Source: a virus. From it: a stretch of DNA of 43,644 bases. The DNA lies in IMG/VR virus record IMGVR_UViG_3300003937_000308, positions 1 to 43,644 of that record; one strand, written 5' to 3'. The notes beneath the pieces are model-generated. The model saw nothing but the letters and a program-made list of their open reading frames with translations. It made no database searches and had not been told where the DNA came from. Positions 16,901 to 36,161 of the stretch are shown in pieces; position 1 is the stretch's first letter, and every line of letters starts with the position of its first letter. A program made the position numbers and the translations under genes.

Positions 16901-19801
16901 ATGGCATTAAGTCCTCAATTATTACAGTTCAAAAGCTCAGGCGTATACCGTCTAGAGTTTGACAAGTCACAAACCGTAAACATCCCTGCGGAGACTATTA
17001 GACTAGTGGTAGGAAGATCTAAAAAAGGTCCTTACAACACACCAGTATTAATAGAAGATGCAGAGCAATTTGTACAGGTATTCGGTGGAATTGACAAGTC
17101 TTTAGAAAAGAAAAATATGTTTTTCCACAGATCAGCATTAGAATGTTTATCTAGAGGTCCAATCCTGGCTCTTAATATGACAACTTCAGATGATAATGAT
17201 AAAGTAGCTATTTTCTCACCAGCTACAAACTCTTCACAAGAAGGTTTATCATCAGTACCAGTAAATGGTTCATCTCAGTTATTAAAGAAGTACAGTGATG
17301 TATTTGATACAGACAAATTTTGGAATCCTTCAGATGAAAAACTATTAGCTGCTGCGGCACAAGACACAAATCACGCGATTTCATTCGTAAACATTAAACA
17401 AGATCCTATCTCAGTTATTATTAGACAAGCTGGTGATGTTAGAGGATTTGAAGTTACTGCAAGAGAATGGTATGGTGAAGGAAATATTCCAGAAGGAGTA
17501 GAAGCTGACGAGTATGTATCAGATTATATGGTAGATGTATTTGTATTCAAAGGTAAATTTGATTCACAAGCATTAAACAACGATCCAACATACGGAGAGT
17601 TCTTTACTTCAAAAGGTTTAGCAAAAGATCAATTAGCTAAATTTGTTGGATTAAGAGAAGTAACTTTACTAGCTCAATATTCTGGTTCTATGATTCCAGA
17701 ATTCCAAGATAATGAAGGTAGACAATTATACATTGAAACTTTAATTAATTTAGAAGCTAGAAGAACAGGTTTATTCTGCGCAATTCAAGAAGATGCACTT
17801 CCACAAATCGATTTAGTAGGTAACGGATTTAACGTATACCAAGATTACGAAGTACTTTCTCATAGAGTAGAGCAAGTTGTAACTCCACTAACTGCAGATT
17901 TCACTGCATTCAATGGTAAAACACAAGTTGATGGTTCTACAATGATTATCTCTGGTGACTCTGGATTTTCAGATGCTACTTTAGCAGGTTTACCAAATCC
18001 AATTATCGCAGGTAAATTCTTACAAGCAGCACAAGCTGATGAGTATGTAAGAATTACAGCAATTAATAACCAAGCTGGTGATAAAGTAGAAATTATAGCT
18101 GATGGAGCAATCAGTCAGCAAATCGGAGTTTATGAAGAATATTCAGATGCTTCTGCAGGTGCTACTTGGAACTCAGATGTACAAGTTAGATTAGATGATA
18201 ACGGAAACTTAGTTTTCGCTGCAACTCCTGACTCAGTTGGTGATACATTATTAGCTGCAGGTGCTAGCGGACCTAATACATTCCTATTATCAGAAAATTC
18301 TGGTGAATATGTAGGAATTGGTGCAATTAACGATACTTATACAGATTCAGTATTCGGTGGTGGTTCTTACTTAGTTTCTCCAGCAGGTTCATTAGGCTTT
18401 TCATCTACATTAGTTGGAAACGGAACAATTATTGCAAATACACCATTTGGTGGTAAGAAATCAGCAGTAAATGATAACTTTTCTGTTAACAATATAGAAT
18501 TAAACGCTAGAGCAGTTGCATTTGATGCAGGATGGTCATTTTTAGACATGGGTGCTGGTGTATTCAAATTCTATAAAGATAACGTTGTGTCTGATACACT
18601 TACTGACAATATTAAAGTTGGAATGTACGTACCAGGTGATAGCGGTAAATTATCTAGAATTACTAAAATTGTAAAATCAGTTTCTGGTGTTACAACTACT
18701 TACACATTTACATCTCACAGAGCTGTTTCTTCAGCTCCAGCTTACGCGCTTAAGAGATATGAAGATGCTGCAGGTGTTTACAAAGTGTTCCCATTAGATG
18801 GAGCATCTCAATCAGCAAAAACTATTGCAGATCTATTAACAGCAATTAAGCCAGGTACTGGTTTAGGTAACGCTTTAGTAGATAAAGACAATATTACATT
18901 CAGATATGTTATTGATACATTCGGTTCTTTAGAAGCTGGTGGAATTTTAAACAAAGAAGAATTAACTTTCTTATGTAAAGAAAGACAAAATGCTTCTGCG
19001 ATTCTTAATGCACCAATGGTTAAAGAATTAAAAGCTTCAACTAATCCATCATTCTTAAATGAATTAACTGGAGCGTTTGATGTAAATAACGTAGCATCGG
19101 GTGGTAACTTAAACTTAAACCCAAGTGCATTATATACTTTACCTTCAATTAACGAAGGTGCAACTTATGGATTCTACTACGGTCCAGGATTAAATGTTAT
19201 TGAAAATGGAAGAACTAAGGTGATACCACCAGCAGCTTACATTTCAAATAACTACATTGACAAATACTCTGACGCTCTGCCATGGTCAATCATCGCAGGC
19301 CCAAGAAGAGGTGTTGTTGGTGGAACTGGCGTACAGTCACTAGAATTTGCATTCGATAAGAATGATAGAGACGTACTAGAACCATTTGGATATAACCCAA
19401 TTGTATTCGAAAGAGGAGTTGGTTTAACAATCAAAGGAAACAAGACTGCACAACAAGGAATTCAGTCAGCTCTTTCTTCAGCTCACGTAAGAGAAGTATT
19501 AATTTACGTTGAAGATGGACTAGCAGAAATCCTTAAGAACTACCTATTTGAGTTCAATACTGCTCAGACTAGATTAGAAATTAAAACTTTAGCAGATAAC
19601 TTCATGGAGTCAGTTAAGAAAGACGGTGGTGTATACGATTATAGAAACATCATGGACACTACTAACAACACGACAGACGTTATTGATAACAACATGGGTA
19701 TCTTAGATACGTTCGTTGAACCAGTTAAAGGATTAGAGATTCTAGTATCGAGAGTAACTGTACTTAATACAGGTGAAATTGCATCCGGAAACTTTGCATA
19801 A
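16901..19801 (+). CDS. 18: Contractile tail sheath protein (gp18-like)
   Basis: A 966-residue protein; T4 gp18 is 659, so about 300 residues are extra. The N-terminus (LQFKSSGVYRLEFDKSQ, VVGRSKKGPYNTPVLIED, VQVFGG) and the C-terminus (VREVLIYVEDGLAEILKNYLFE, FNTAQTRLEIKTLADNFMES, VEPVKGLEILVSRVTVLNTG) match the conserved sheath core that interlocks subunits and packs on the tube. The middle, roughly residues 335-650, is Gly/Ser/Asp-rich beta-type sequence and is the likely place of the insertion, on the outer face of the sheath as are the variable T4 domains. Adjacent to the tube gene, as in T4. Confidence 0.93.
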   Translation: MALSPQLLQFKSSGVYRLEFDKSQTVNIPAETIRLVVGRSKKGPYNTPVLIEDAEQFVQVFGGIDKSLEKKNMFFHRSALECLSRGPILALNMTTSDDNDKVAIFSPATNSSQEGLSSVPVNGSSQLLKKYSDVFDTDKFWNPSDEKLLAAAAQDTNHAISFVNIKQDPISVIIRQAGDVRGFEVTAREWYGEGNIPEGVEADEYVSDYMVDVFVFKGKFDSQALNNDPTYGEFFTSKGLAKDQLAKFVGLREVTLLAQYSGSMIPEFQDNEGRQLYIETLINLEARRTGLFCAIQEDALPQIDLVGNGFNVYQDYEVLSHRVEQVVTPLTADFTAFNGKTQVDGSTMIISGDSGFSDATLAGLPNPIIAGKFLQAAQADEYVRITAINNQAGDKVEIIADGAISQQIGVYEEYSDASAGATWNSDVQVRLDDNGNLVFAATPDSVGDTLLAAGASGPNTFLLSENSGEYVGIGAINDTYTDSVFGGGSYLVSPAGSLGFSSTLVGNGTIIANTPFGGKKSAVNDNFSVNNIELNARAVAFDAGWSFLDMGAGVFKFYKDNVVSDTLTDNIKVGMYVPGDSGKLSRITKIVKSVSGVTTTYTFTSHRAVSSAPAYALKRYEDAAGVYKVFPLDGASQSAKTIADLLTAIKPGTGLGNALVDKDNITFRYVIDTFGSLEAGGILNKEELTFLCKERQNASAILNAPMVKELKASTNPSFLNELTGAFDVNNVASGGNLNLNPSALYTLPSINEGATYGFYYGPGLNVIENGRTKVIPPAAYISNNYIDKYSDALPWSIIAGPRRGVVGGTGVQSLEFAFDKNDRDVLEPFGYNPIVFERGVGLTIKGNKTAQQGIQSALSSAHVREVLIYVEDGLAEILKNYLFEFNTAQTRLEIKTLADNFMESVKKDGGVYDYRNIMDTTNNTTDVIDNNMGILDTFVEPVKGLEILVSRVTVLNTGEIASGNFA

Positions 19802-33715: not shown

Positions 33716-34753
33716 ATGCGACAGGCACTTACTTACGATGACATTCAGCTCATCCCTAATTTTTCAGCGGTTCAATCTCGCCAAGATATTAAACTACATA
33801 CTAACGTTAGCCGTAATTGGTCAATCGATATTCCAATTGTAGGTAGTTGTATGGACACTGTAACTGAATATGAAATGGCAGCAACTCTTATGGAAATGGG
33901 AGGCGTGGGTTGTCTACATAGATTTATGTCTATCGAAGAACAGGTAAAACAGGTAAAGAAATTAGTAGCATATAGAGAAACTGATATAACATTGCAACAT
34001 CTGCCTATTATGGCAGCAGTTGGTGTGGTTGGAGATTATCTCGACCGAGCTGCAGAACTAGAAGCAGCGGGATGTAATGTTATTCTAGTTGATGTTGCCC
34101 ATGGACATCACGCAAACATGGAAGTCGCTCTTACTGAGTTGAAGGCAAATCTGACAGAGTTGACAGATGTTATTGCTGGAAACATTGCAACAGCAGAAGC
34201 AGCAGAAGATCTGATTGCTTGGGGAGCAGATGGTCTACGAGTTGGTATTGGGGGAGGTTCTCTCTGTACCACTCGTGTTAAGACTGGTTTCGGTGTACCT
34301 AATGTTTCATCTATTGAAGATGTTTTTGAAATAGCAGATGCAAATGGAATACCTATCATGGCAGATGGTGGTATTAAATCCTCAGGTGATATTGCTAAGG
34401 CACTCGCAGTTGGCGCTGATTGTGTAATGGTTGGTTCACTACTAGCCGGTACAAAGGAATCACCAGGTGCTATCCTAGAAACTCCAGCGGGTCTATTCAA
34501 ACGCTATCGTGGTTCTGCCTCACTAGAAACTAAAGTCACACATGGCCAGAAGTCTAGAAACGTAGAGGGCGAGTCTACAACTATTCCATTTAAAGGTGGT
34601 GTCAAGTTTATTATTAATGGTCTAACAGACGGAATTCGCTCAGCATTCTCTTATGCAGGAGCAGATAATATCATGGACTATTGGGTAAATGCTACTTACA
34701 ATGTAGTATCTTCAGCAGGTTTGGCAGAAGCAAAACCTCACTTAATTTCATAA
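33716..34753 (+). CDS. IMP dehydrogenase / GMP reductase family enzyme (GMPR-like)
   Basis: A 345-residue TIM-barrel enzyme. It starts with ALTYDDIQLIP, has IPIVGSCMDTVTE, DVAHGHHANM, and the catalytic loop IGGGSLCTTRVKTGFGVP with Cys184, then PIMADGGIKSSGDIAKALAVGAD and GSLLAGTKESPG. Length and absence of the CBS domains match GMP reductase (about 347), as does the Thr after Lys in the loop. GEST-x-IPFKGGV and DGIRSAFSYAGA follow the GMPR C-terminal pattern better than IMPDH. GMPR makes IMP from GMP, IMPDH makes XMP from IMP; the direction here is not certain. It follows two tRNA genes and a small hairpin. Such purine enzymes are rare in phages. Confidence 0.85.
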   Translation: MRQALTYDDIQLIPNFSAVQSRQDIKLHTNVSRNWSIDIPIVGSCMDTVTEYEMAATLMEMGGVGCLHRFMSIEEQVKQVKKLVAYRETDITLQHLPIMAAVGVVGDYLDRAAELEAAGCNVILVDVAHGHHANMEVALTELKANLTELTDVIAGNIATAEAAEDLIAWGADGLRVGIGGGSLCTTRVKTGFGVPNVSSIEDVFEIADANGIPIMADGGIKSSGDIAKALAVGADCVMVGSLLAGTKESPGAILETPAGLFKRYRGSASLETKVTHGQKSRNVEGESTTIPFKGGVKFIINGLTDGIRSAFSYAGADNIMDYWVNATYNVVSSAGLAEAKPHLIS

Positions 34754-34869: not shown

Positions 34870-34955
34870 GCCGGAATGGTGGAATTGGTAGACACGAGGG
34901 ACTTAAAATCCCTTGGGCAGTAATGCCCGTGACGGTTCGAGCCCGTCTTCCGGTA
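34870..34955 (+). tRNA. tRNA-Leu (UAA)
   Basis: Acceptor GCCGGAA pairs with TTCCGGT (34948-34954). Anticodon stem AGGGA/TCCCT encloses CTTAAAA (anticodon TAA). A long variable arm (TGGGCAG-TAAT-GCCCG region) and T arm GACGGTTCGAGCCCGTC follow. CCA is not encoded. Confidence 0.95.
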
Positions 34956-34958
34956 CTA

Positions 34959-35081
34959 AAGAGAGGTAGTGAAGCTGTAGTTAAGAAGTAGAGTGTATTA
35001 ATTTCCGAAAAAGGGTTTATAGTAGGAAGGCGCCACTCATTGCACTTAACCAGAAACCCCGAAAGACCCGAAGCCTCTCTT
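34959..35081 (+). ncRNA. Candidate structured RNA with pseudoknot, inside the tRNA cluster
   Basis: This 123-base stretch between tRNA-Leu and tRNA-Arg holds no sensible ORF but nested perfect complementarity. P1 is AAGAGAGG (34959-34966) with CCTCTCTT (35074-35081). P2 is CTG-TA-GTTAAG (34975-34985) with CTTAACCAG (35045-35053). P3 is GAGTG (34991-34995) with CACTC (35034-35038). P4 is TTTCC (35002-35006) with GGAAG (35025-35029). GGGTTT (35013-35018) in the P4 loop can pair with AAACCC (35054-35059), outside P2, forming a pseudoknot. Five consistent helices suggest a genuine folded RNA processed from the tRNA transcript. I do not recognise a known family; no folding calculation was done. 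Confidence 0.6.
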
Positions 35082-35087
35082 ACTTAT

Positions 35088-35161
35088 GGACCAGTAGCTC
35101 AGCTGGATAGAGCATCTGCCTTCTAAGCAGACGGTCACAGGTTCGAATCCTGTCTGGTTCA
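35088..35161 (+). tRNA. tRNA-Arg (UCU)
   Basis: Acceptor GGACCAG pairs with CTGGTTC (35154-35160). Anticodon stem TCTGC/GCAGA encloses CTTCTAA (anticodon TCT). The T arm is CACAGGTTCGAATCCTGTC. CCA is not encoded. Confidence 0.95.
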
Positions 35162-35165
35162 CTAA

Positions 35166-35238
35166 GATTTCGTAGCTCAGCTGGAAGAGCATCTCACTTT
35201 TAATGAGAGGGTCGTGGGTTCGAGCCCCACCGGAATCA
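35166..35238 (+). tRNA. tRNA-Lys (UUU)
   Basis: Acceptor GATTTCG pairs with CGGAATC (35231-35237). Anticodon stem TCTCA/TGAGA encloses CTTTTAA (anticodon TTT). The T arm is GTGGGTTCGAGCCCCAC. CCA is not encoded. Confidence 0.95.
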
Positions 35239-35253
35239 CATAAGAAAATCATC

Positions 35254-35380: not shown

Positions 35381-35767
35381 ATGCAAATTGCTTTAATAGC
35401 ACACGACAACAAGAAAGCGGACATGGTAGCATTCGTTTCAAAAAGATTACAATTCTTTAATAATGAAGATATTCATATTATAGCTACAGGCACAACTGGC
35501 TCACACTGTAGAAGAGCTGGTATTAAAAAATTAACAACAGTACAAAGTGGACCTTTAGGTGGAGATGCAGAGATTGCCGCTATGGTTACAAAGGGTGAAA
35601 TCGATTTAGTTATATTTATGAGAGATCCTTTAGGTAAGCATGCACATGATGTAGATATTTCTATGTTAATGCGACTTTGTGATGTTCATAATATACCACT
35701 AGCTACTAACTATAAAACTGCTTCACATCTAGTTAAGTGGTATAAATATTTAAGAAAAGATGCTTAA
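35381..35767 (+). CDS. mgsA: Methylglyoxal synthase
   Basis: A 128-residue protein with the complete family pattern: IALIAHDNKKADMV, IIATGTTGS (phosphate-binding), QSGPLGGDAEIAAMV with Asp62, MRDPLGKHAHDVDISML with Asp82, His89 and Asp92, and NIPLATNYKTASHLV. These four residues sit at a constant offset from the catalytic D71, D91, H98 and D101 of the E. coli enzyme. It converts dihydroxyacetone phosphate to methylglyoxal and phosphate, bypassing lower glycolysis. It is a small cytosolic hexamer in bacteria, and its 3' end overlaps the next start by 8 bases. A phage-borne copy is unusual; effects could be toxicity, phosphate release or redirecting carbon. Confidence 0.95.
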   Translation: MQIALIAHDNKKADMVAFVSKRLQFFNNEDIHIIATGTTGSHCRRAGIKKLTTVQSGPLGGDAEIAAMVTKGEIDLVIFMRDPLGKHAHDVDISMLMRLCDVHNIPLATNYKTASHLVKWYKYLRKDA

Positions 35768-36161
35768 AGTTCCAAACAATTTATACGTTAAATGGACCGA
35801 TGAAAAAGGTTACGGCGTTTTTACAGATACACTCATTAAAAAAGATGAAATCATCGAAACTTGTTATTGTATAAAAACAAGTAGTCCTAAATGGCAAGCA
35901 AGTCCTGCATTAATGGATTATTTATTTAATTACCCTAAAGGTGATTTTATAGGAAAAGGTGCAGAACATGTATTACCGTTAGGATTTGGATCTATCTATA
36001 ACCACGATGATGATAATAATGCAATGTGGTATAATAACAAAAACATACCTTTCCATTTTGATTTTATAGCATTAAGGGATATTCAACCCGGAGAAGAAAT
36101 ATGTACTTATTATGGTAAGGATTATTGGCCACAAAAAAAGAAAAGAGATGAACAAAAATAA
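35760..36161 (+). CDS. SET-domain protein methyltransferase
   Basis: A 133-residue single-domain SET protein. KGYGVFTDTLIKKDEII is the first SET segment; LGFGSIYNHDDDNNAMW contains the N-H pair (Asn81, His82) of the SAM/lysine-binding pseudoknot; ALRDIQPGEEICTYYG is the last motif with the catalytic-type Tyr (117/118). It begins within the mgsA gene (8-base overlap), so the two are co-translated. SET enzymes methylate lysine in proteins; a target in the host (for instance ribosomal or DNA-bound proteins) is speculative. Only the core domain is present, with no post-SET cysteines. Confidence 0.85.
   Translation: MLKVPNNLYVKWTDEKGYGVFTDTLIKKDEIIETCYCIKTSSPKWQASPALMDYLFNYPKGDFIGKGAEHVLPLGFGSIYNHDDDNNAMWYNNKNIPFHFDFIALRDIQPGEEICTYYGKDYWPQKKKRDEQK

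Follow-up and report, generated by a model that had tools for sequence, protein, structure and literature searches.

A pseudoknotted phage RNA family with a near-invariant core, natural circular permutants and frequent residence beside tRNA genes

The element and its neighbours

The stretch of DNA that was analysed (the window) comprises 43,644 nucleotides of IMG/VR virus record IMGVR_UViG_3300003937_000308. It is probably a piece of the genome of a large Bacteroidota myovirus, as judged from its 966-aa tail sheath protein (16901-19801), whose nearest relatives come from Tenacibaculum phages, Prevotella (Lak) phages and huge uncultured phages. A dehydrogenase gene (33716-34753; phrog_9582, E 1e-95), the product of which looks like an enzyme of the IMP dehydrogenase/GMP reductase type, is located between two groups of tRNA genes. 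Beyond the element described here, a tRNA-like sequence at 35255-35331 matches Rfam with 30.0 bits against a threshold of 29 and was not called by ARAGORN; it may be a tRNA of degenerate or unusual form that closes the cluster. It is followed by a gene for an MGS-like (methylglyoxal synthase-like) protein (35381-35767), which adjoins that of a 133-aa SET-domain protein (35760-36161; PF00856, E 6e-12).

ARAGORN identifies tRNA-Leu(UAA) at 34870..34956 and tRNA-Arg(UCU) at 35088..35162, both on the plus strand, as are all parts of the element. The 131 nt from the 3′ end of the former to the 5′ end of the latter (34957..35087) constitute the RNA predicted to remain after tRNA processing, and the covariance model of the family matches the window's own record at 34961-35079 (48.2 bits, E 5e-13). 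The sequence-only reading of this DNA had named a set of helices here, including an 8-bp closing stem and a 6-bp pseudoknot, and had seen no plausible ORF. All of these helices were found between the two tRNA genes, and the plus strand of the region holds no ORF of at least 60 aa; a minus-strand ORF of 68 aa (35046-35252) extends back across tRNA-Arg and tRNA-Lys.

The closing stem, P1, recognized by helix inspection and by covariation in the family, is formed by AAGAGAGG (34959..34966) and CCUCUCUU (35074..35081). It is followed by a conserved 5′ piece (34967..34977) consisting of the J1 motif UAGUGAA and GCUG, the last three bases of which (CUG, 34975..34977) pair with CAG (35051..35053) as P2a. 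After a 2-nt UA bulge, P2b joins GUUAAG (34980..34985) to CUUAAC (35045..35050), strands which vary in relatives with the pairing kept. A peripheral arm, GAGUG (34991..34995) with CACUC (35034..35038), is present in window-type members and missing from short-arm members such as that of locus L011. P3, formed by UUCC (35003..35006) and GGAA (35025..35028), carries the conserved loop GAAAAAGGGUUUAUAGUA (35007..35024), within which GGGUUU (35013..35018) provides the 5′ strand of the pseudoknot; its 3′ strand is AAACCC (35054..35059). The conserved 3′ core AACCCCGAAAGACCCGAAG (35055..35073), which begins within the latter strand, served as the anchor of all searches.

Taken as a single sequence, the window's fold is not clearly above chance. 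The folding energy is ordinary (MFE z = -0.68 and -0.92 in two runs), and an 8-bp closing stem together with a 6-bp loop pseudoknot occurs in 1.4% of Markov shuffles. The fold is established instead by comparison with 62 distinct homologous cores.

Covariation, core and permuted copies

Sixty-two distinct linear copies were aligned as anchored blocks, giving 72 gapless columns. Compensatory changes at the paired positions of relatives had been proposed as the check on the fold, and they were found: among these copies 95.4% of the cells of 19 scored pairs are paired, and 13 of the 19 show double-sided changes. The covariation score is 0.595 against 0.165 +/- 0.011 in 500 shuffles, none of which reaches it, and slid-partner controls give at most 0.165; one pair-count control ignores relatedness, a weakness partly offset by the slid control and by pair types recurring in unrelated phages. 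All six scored pairs of P1 have compensatory changes (95.7% paired), as do all four pairs of P3, and the third pair of P2a is seen as G-C, C-G, U-A and A-U across the family. The pseudoknot is paired in 97.3% of cases, a value biased upward since the blocks were anchored on it, and it covaries at its outer pairs (G-C/A-U, with A-U/U-A/C-G at the sixth). The identity changes of these outer pairs, like those of P1, P2a and P3, are not attributable to anchoring. The covarying fold consists of P1, P2a and P3 plus a 6-bp pseudoknot that joins the P3 loop to the strand directly after P2.

The nine pairs with the highest mutual information are all part of the model. The next are non-canonical couplings between J1 and the strand following the pseudoknot (columns 9-58, 58-63 and 11-63). 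At columns 11-63 G-G alternates with U-A or A-G, and at 9-58 with A-C, a pattern that points to a tertiary contact.

The core, UAGUGAAGCUN ... GAAAAAGGGUUNNNAGUA ... NAGNAACCCNGAAAGACCCGAAG, is almost unchanged throughout; it spans approximately 40 nt, and about 30 of the 72 alignment columns are invariant. The arms differ in length and fall into three types: the long arm of the window type, a short arm, and a compact form with a 9-nt loop. Two loci with the long arm (L018, L065) and two with the short arm (L028, L029) have the upstream tRNA, P1 and core in common, as if arms had been exchanged by recombination within the core.

Fifteen loci carry the same core with the 5′ and 3′ parts swapped, which is the hallmark of a circularly permuted RNA. 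In these the 5′ piece (J1 + GCUN) sits 3′ of the core and scores 10.3-17.8 bits, shuffled sequences reaching no more than 6.4. P1 consists of a small hairpin with a cap (often CCGAAAGG), and the relocated strand pairs with the former 3′ strand to re-form P2, in sequences that differ among loci. Two further groups appear permuted by eye with PSSM scores below the null maximum, namely the type of L013, L024, L057, L060 and L063, and that of L009, L052 and the Rhizobium phages. A 2023 paper names hammerhead and twister ribozymes, 5S rRNA and group II introns as the only RNAs with natural circular permutation, apart from special cases of tmRNA, tRNA and SRP RNA (PMC10085705). One viral contig with a circularly permuted copy also encodes a permuted tmRNA (L091, 1508-1878, minus strand; tag ANDNFAPSDYALAA). 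Beside the permuted copy of L024 (4300-4640, minus strand), pieces such as gagtagtggc and gccattactta are repeated, as if the outer stem recurred downstream without the core.

Distribution and genomic context

The family came to light through a weak blastn match of 29-38 nt to other phages, which was pursued because nearly all matches fell in unannotated gaps, mostly in tRNA clusters. As blastn queries, the copies of Hena1 and of a Mosigvirus retrieved 54 and 52 phage records, and a permuted copy and a short-arm copy of Bacteroidota type 33 each. Pattern scans of IMG/VR returned 58 and 105 stretches (more than 100 contigs), these locus counts depending on the search patterns used. Carriers infect Klebsiella, Erwinia, Proteus, E. 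coli, Pectobacterium, Providencia, Morganella, Pseudomonas, Xanthomonas, Vibrio and Rhizobium; they include Vequintavirinae, Stephanstirmvirinae, Alcyoneusvirus, Demerecviridae (Novosibvirus, Sugarlandvirus, Myunavirus) and Straboviridae (Mosigvirus, Mosugukvirus, Gualtarvirus).

Of 36 whole phage records, the covariance model detects the element in 35, as a single copy in 34; a second copy in record G031 (17 bits) looks like coding sequence and is probably spurious. No match was obtained in plasmids or in 5,426 E. coli genomes. Among 84,980 bacterial and archaeal species one contig was positive (L067), a phage-like piece of a Flavobacterium MAG with eight tRNAs; two further candidates from 299 genomes of the same family (L180, L181) lack the core and are false positives. 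The RNA family is phage-borne and evolves as a single-copy cassette with gain and loss. Phages evidently keep the RNA for some purpose, and its gain and loss among close relatives shows that it is dispensable in some hosts.

A same-strand tRNA gene lies within 300 nt of the element in 60 of 108 distinct loci and an opposite-strand one in none; for positions drawn at random from these loci, the share near a tRNA is 22.5%. The 53 linear copies on tRNA-bearing contigs directly adjoin tRNAs on both sides (24), upstream only (10), downstream only (9) or on neither side (10). The gaps, -1 to 6 nt on the upstream side and 2 to 12 nt on the downstream side, resemble those between the surrounding tRNAs (median 6). 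The Henunavirus copy is situated between tRNA-Gly and tRNA-Glu, that of KP13-26 ahead of tRNA-Val, and that of RaK2 behind a tRNA missing from the record's annotation. In Mosigvirus the element forms a clean insertion of about 97 bp at a tRNA-Met/tRNA-Arg junction, for which Shf125875 provides the exact empty site with only a few bases between the two genes.

Approximately 45% of the distinct loci are more than 300 nt away from any tRNA, partly since the contigs are fragments, and tRNA processing could therefore not be the sole route of maturation. Copies without tRNAs follow genes for groEL, primase/helicase, PolB, NAMPT, exonuclease or virion proteins, several of them starting within about 15 nt after a stop codon. 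A scan downstream of one stand-alone copy detected no intrinsic terminator. No conserved partner gene was present among the neighbours of the loci; one apparent cluster of neighbour genes at nine loci proved to be a mixture of unrelated proteins (a primase in L100, groEL in L102). At L106 the gene that follows is a genuine one (phrog_35261) and is convergent. A few hundred nucleotides upstream of the element in L055 there is a long GC-rich stretch without an Rfam match, which looks like a further structured RNA.

Two Mydoviruses carry the element within a group I intron of the DNA polymerase gene, where it fills the loop of the P6 extension; sister phages have an HNH ORF at the same intron. 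Residence in group I introns was considered as a common habit and rejected: the Mydovirus copy is the only instance, the intron of L055 lying about 3 kb from its element. The element itself does not match RF00028 (group I intron).

Function and relation to known RNAs

The sequence-only reading had proposed either a phage non-coding RNA of a new kind, possibly excised with the tRNAs, or a regulator of host translation. The former is well upheld by covariation that includes the pseudoknot, by the same-strand, tRNA-like spacing, by stand-alone copies and by the lack of an Rfam match, with excision as a predicted step; the observations speak neither for nor against the latter. We lean towards the reading that the family, of approximately 80-130 nt, is released by tRNA processing and acts in trans, its rigid core binding a conserved target; on balance this is the somewhat more probable account. 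The RNA would be transcribed together with the tRNAs and freed by RNase P cleavage of the downstream tRNA and 3′-end processing of the upstream one, and P1, by closing the ends, would confer stability. The core may then be presented to a conserved partner of bacterial or phage origin, with a protein as the most plausible candidate. Phage tRNA arrays are hot spots of counter-defence tRNAs, and for this reason the guess that suggests itself first is a decoy or inhibitor role directed at a nuclease or defence factor of the host. Action in trans is preferred to action in cis because the neighbours are unrelated and the next gene at L106 is convergent. On the other side, permutation and a near-invariant single-stranded core are best known from ribozymes, an analogy that would weigh against a trans-acting RNA.

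The main rival, which we consider unlikely, is a new class of self-cleaving or catalytic RNA that cuts within tRNA transcripts and helps to mature tRNA ends. Theta ribozymes, which are HDV-like, lie within 5 nt of the 3′ ends of phage tRNAs, mainly in phages of Bacteroidota hosts (PMC10879173), and here, among the 53 linear elements on tRNA-bearing contigs, 34 have a P1 that begins no more than 6 nt from a tRNA 3′ end. The invariance of some 30 columns would also suit a catalyst, as would permutation, described for hammerhead, twister and few other RNAs (PMC10085705). Against this, P1 encloses the whole RNA, so that a cut in the core would not yield a clean tRNA end, and in one lineage the element lies inside the intron that splits the DNA polymerase gene, where fast self-cleavage would cut the precursor. 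Together with the nine copies that have a tRNA downstream only, these two features are the reason that a theta-like ribozyme is disfavoured. The many loci without a nearby tRNA, the lack of a match to the ribozyme families of Rfam and a strand order without the HDV P3 hairpin also argue against it.

Marginally less probable again is a cis-acting element, whether an aptamer or riboswitch, a signal for processive antitermination of untranslated tRNA arrays, or a protecting element of 3′-UTRs. Nearby tRNAs are always co-oriented, several tRNA-free copies begin just past a stop codon, the core would suit binding of a ligand or of RNA polymerase, and insertion into an intron loop recalls aptamer-controlled introns. 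Against these points stand the convergent gene at L106, the frequent presence of another tRNA directly after the element, and the lack of any visible expression platform. No upstream gene is common to the loci and no downstream gene either, and because of the latter a riboswitch is disfavoured.

It is quite improbable that the element is a selfish RNA-gene cassette, spread with homing endonucleases and introns and of no benefit to the phage. Clean presence or absence at a single tRNA junction, occupation of the very intron that holds an HNH ORF in sister phages, and HNH genes near the element in L110 and in Rhizobium phages are consistent with such a cassette; single copies in most of the 36 records, the lack of an ORF of its own and a core almost unchanged across very distant phages are not. 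A chance fold in a tRNA spacer, with which the ordinary single-sequence energies would agree, is refuted by the covariation, and the breadth of the family also speaks against it.

To our knowledge, conservation across several phage families is rare among phage non-coding RNAs. The present one spans T4-like, T5-like, Vequintavirinae, jumbo and Bacteroidota phages, with a near-invariant core, natural permutants and a site in tRNA arrays. It may represent a new functional RNA class, carried as a single "extra tRNA gene" by phages of at least two bacterial phyla and serving either as a new ribozyme class or as a widely used inhibitor or decoy of a conserved host factor, one of defence or of translation; to this we give not quite even weight. 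If so, the fold would be self-contained enough for natural permutation and for grafting into a group I intron. The E. coli K-12 phage mogra, a carrier, and its near relative Shf125875, which lacks the element, provide a natural experiment on function.

The family appears to be undescribed and is absent from Rfam 15. At gathering thresholds no Rfam 15 family covers the element in the window or in six other loci, and for the window nothing credible appears at E values up to 10; the best sub-threshold scores are those of CRISPR-DR30 (16.8/50 bits), RAGATH-33 (10.4/120 bits) and Zeta-pan (14.4/56.7 bits). The Hena1 element has no Rfam match at E ≤ 3. Rfam membership was likewise rejected for rotated and permuted copies, which gave no match, and neither ARAGORN nor RF00005 identifies the element as a tRNA. 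The core string and a description of the RNA were not found in the openly licensed literature. Likenesses to 16S rRNA h36/37 (GGGUUAAG...AACGAG...AACCC) and to the 23S rRNA segment GAAAGACCC were dropped as chance agreement of short words.

GOLLD and ROOL are associated with tRNAs and resemble the element in being orphan phage-associated RNAs. They are large and ornate (PMC12286853), whereas the element measures 80-130 nt and is unrelated to them by Rfam. Hammerhead and twister ribozymes share with it the existence of natural circularly permuted types, without similarity in sequence or in Rfam. ToxI, another small pseudoknotted RNA, is a short tandem repeat; the element differs in being a single, longer unit whose invariant core is large, and it has neither an Rfam match nor a nearby toxin gene. 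The arrangement of type III toxin-antitoxin systems, short repeats in tandem ahead of a toxN-like gene, is not seen, the element being a single unit, and its neighbours in the window are tRNAs and the MGS-domain and SET-domain proteins. A precedent for a decoy role is nonetheless provided by a phage pseudo-ToxI RNA, a mimic that is reported to neutralise a host toxin (PMC3475682).

Theta ribozymes resemble the element as phage-borne pseudoknotted RNAs placed directly 3′ of tRNAs, Bacteroidota phages being among the carriers of both. HDV-like ribozymes are built as a nested double pseudoknot, with a P3 hairpin between the P2 5′ and P1 3′ strands and a catalytic C in J4/2. The element has a different strand order without that hairpin, the 3′ strand of P2 abutting that of the pseudoknot; it is often 5′ of a tRNA or far from any, and no HDV-family match was obtained at E ≤ 3. 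A parallel in position is found in phage T4, where rnaC (species 1) and rnaD (species 2) are late, stable RNAs of no known function (PMC3014915, PMC9697503). Like the element, they are small non-tRNA RNAs of a phage tRNA cluster, in their case encoded where the cluster ends. The covariance model has no match in the T4 genome (NC_000866) at E ≤ 0.01, and homology was rejected, the best match in the tRNA region (15.3 bits) lying outside rnaC and rnaD and the core being absent. rnaC and rnaD are a pair within T4, and the element is a broad single-copy family; the two are analogous in place, not homologous.
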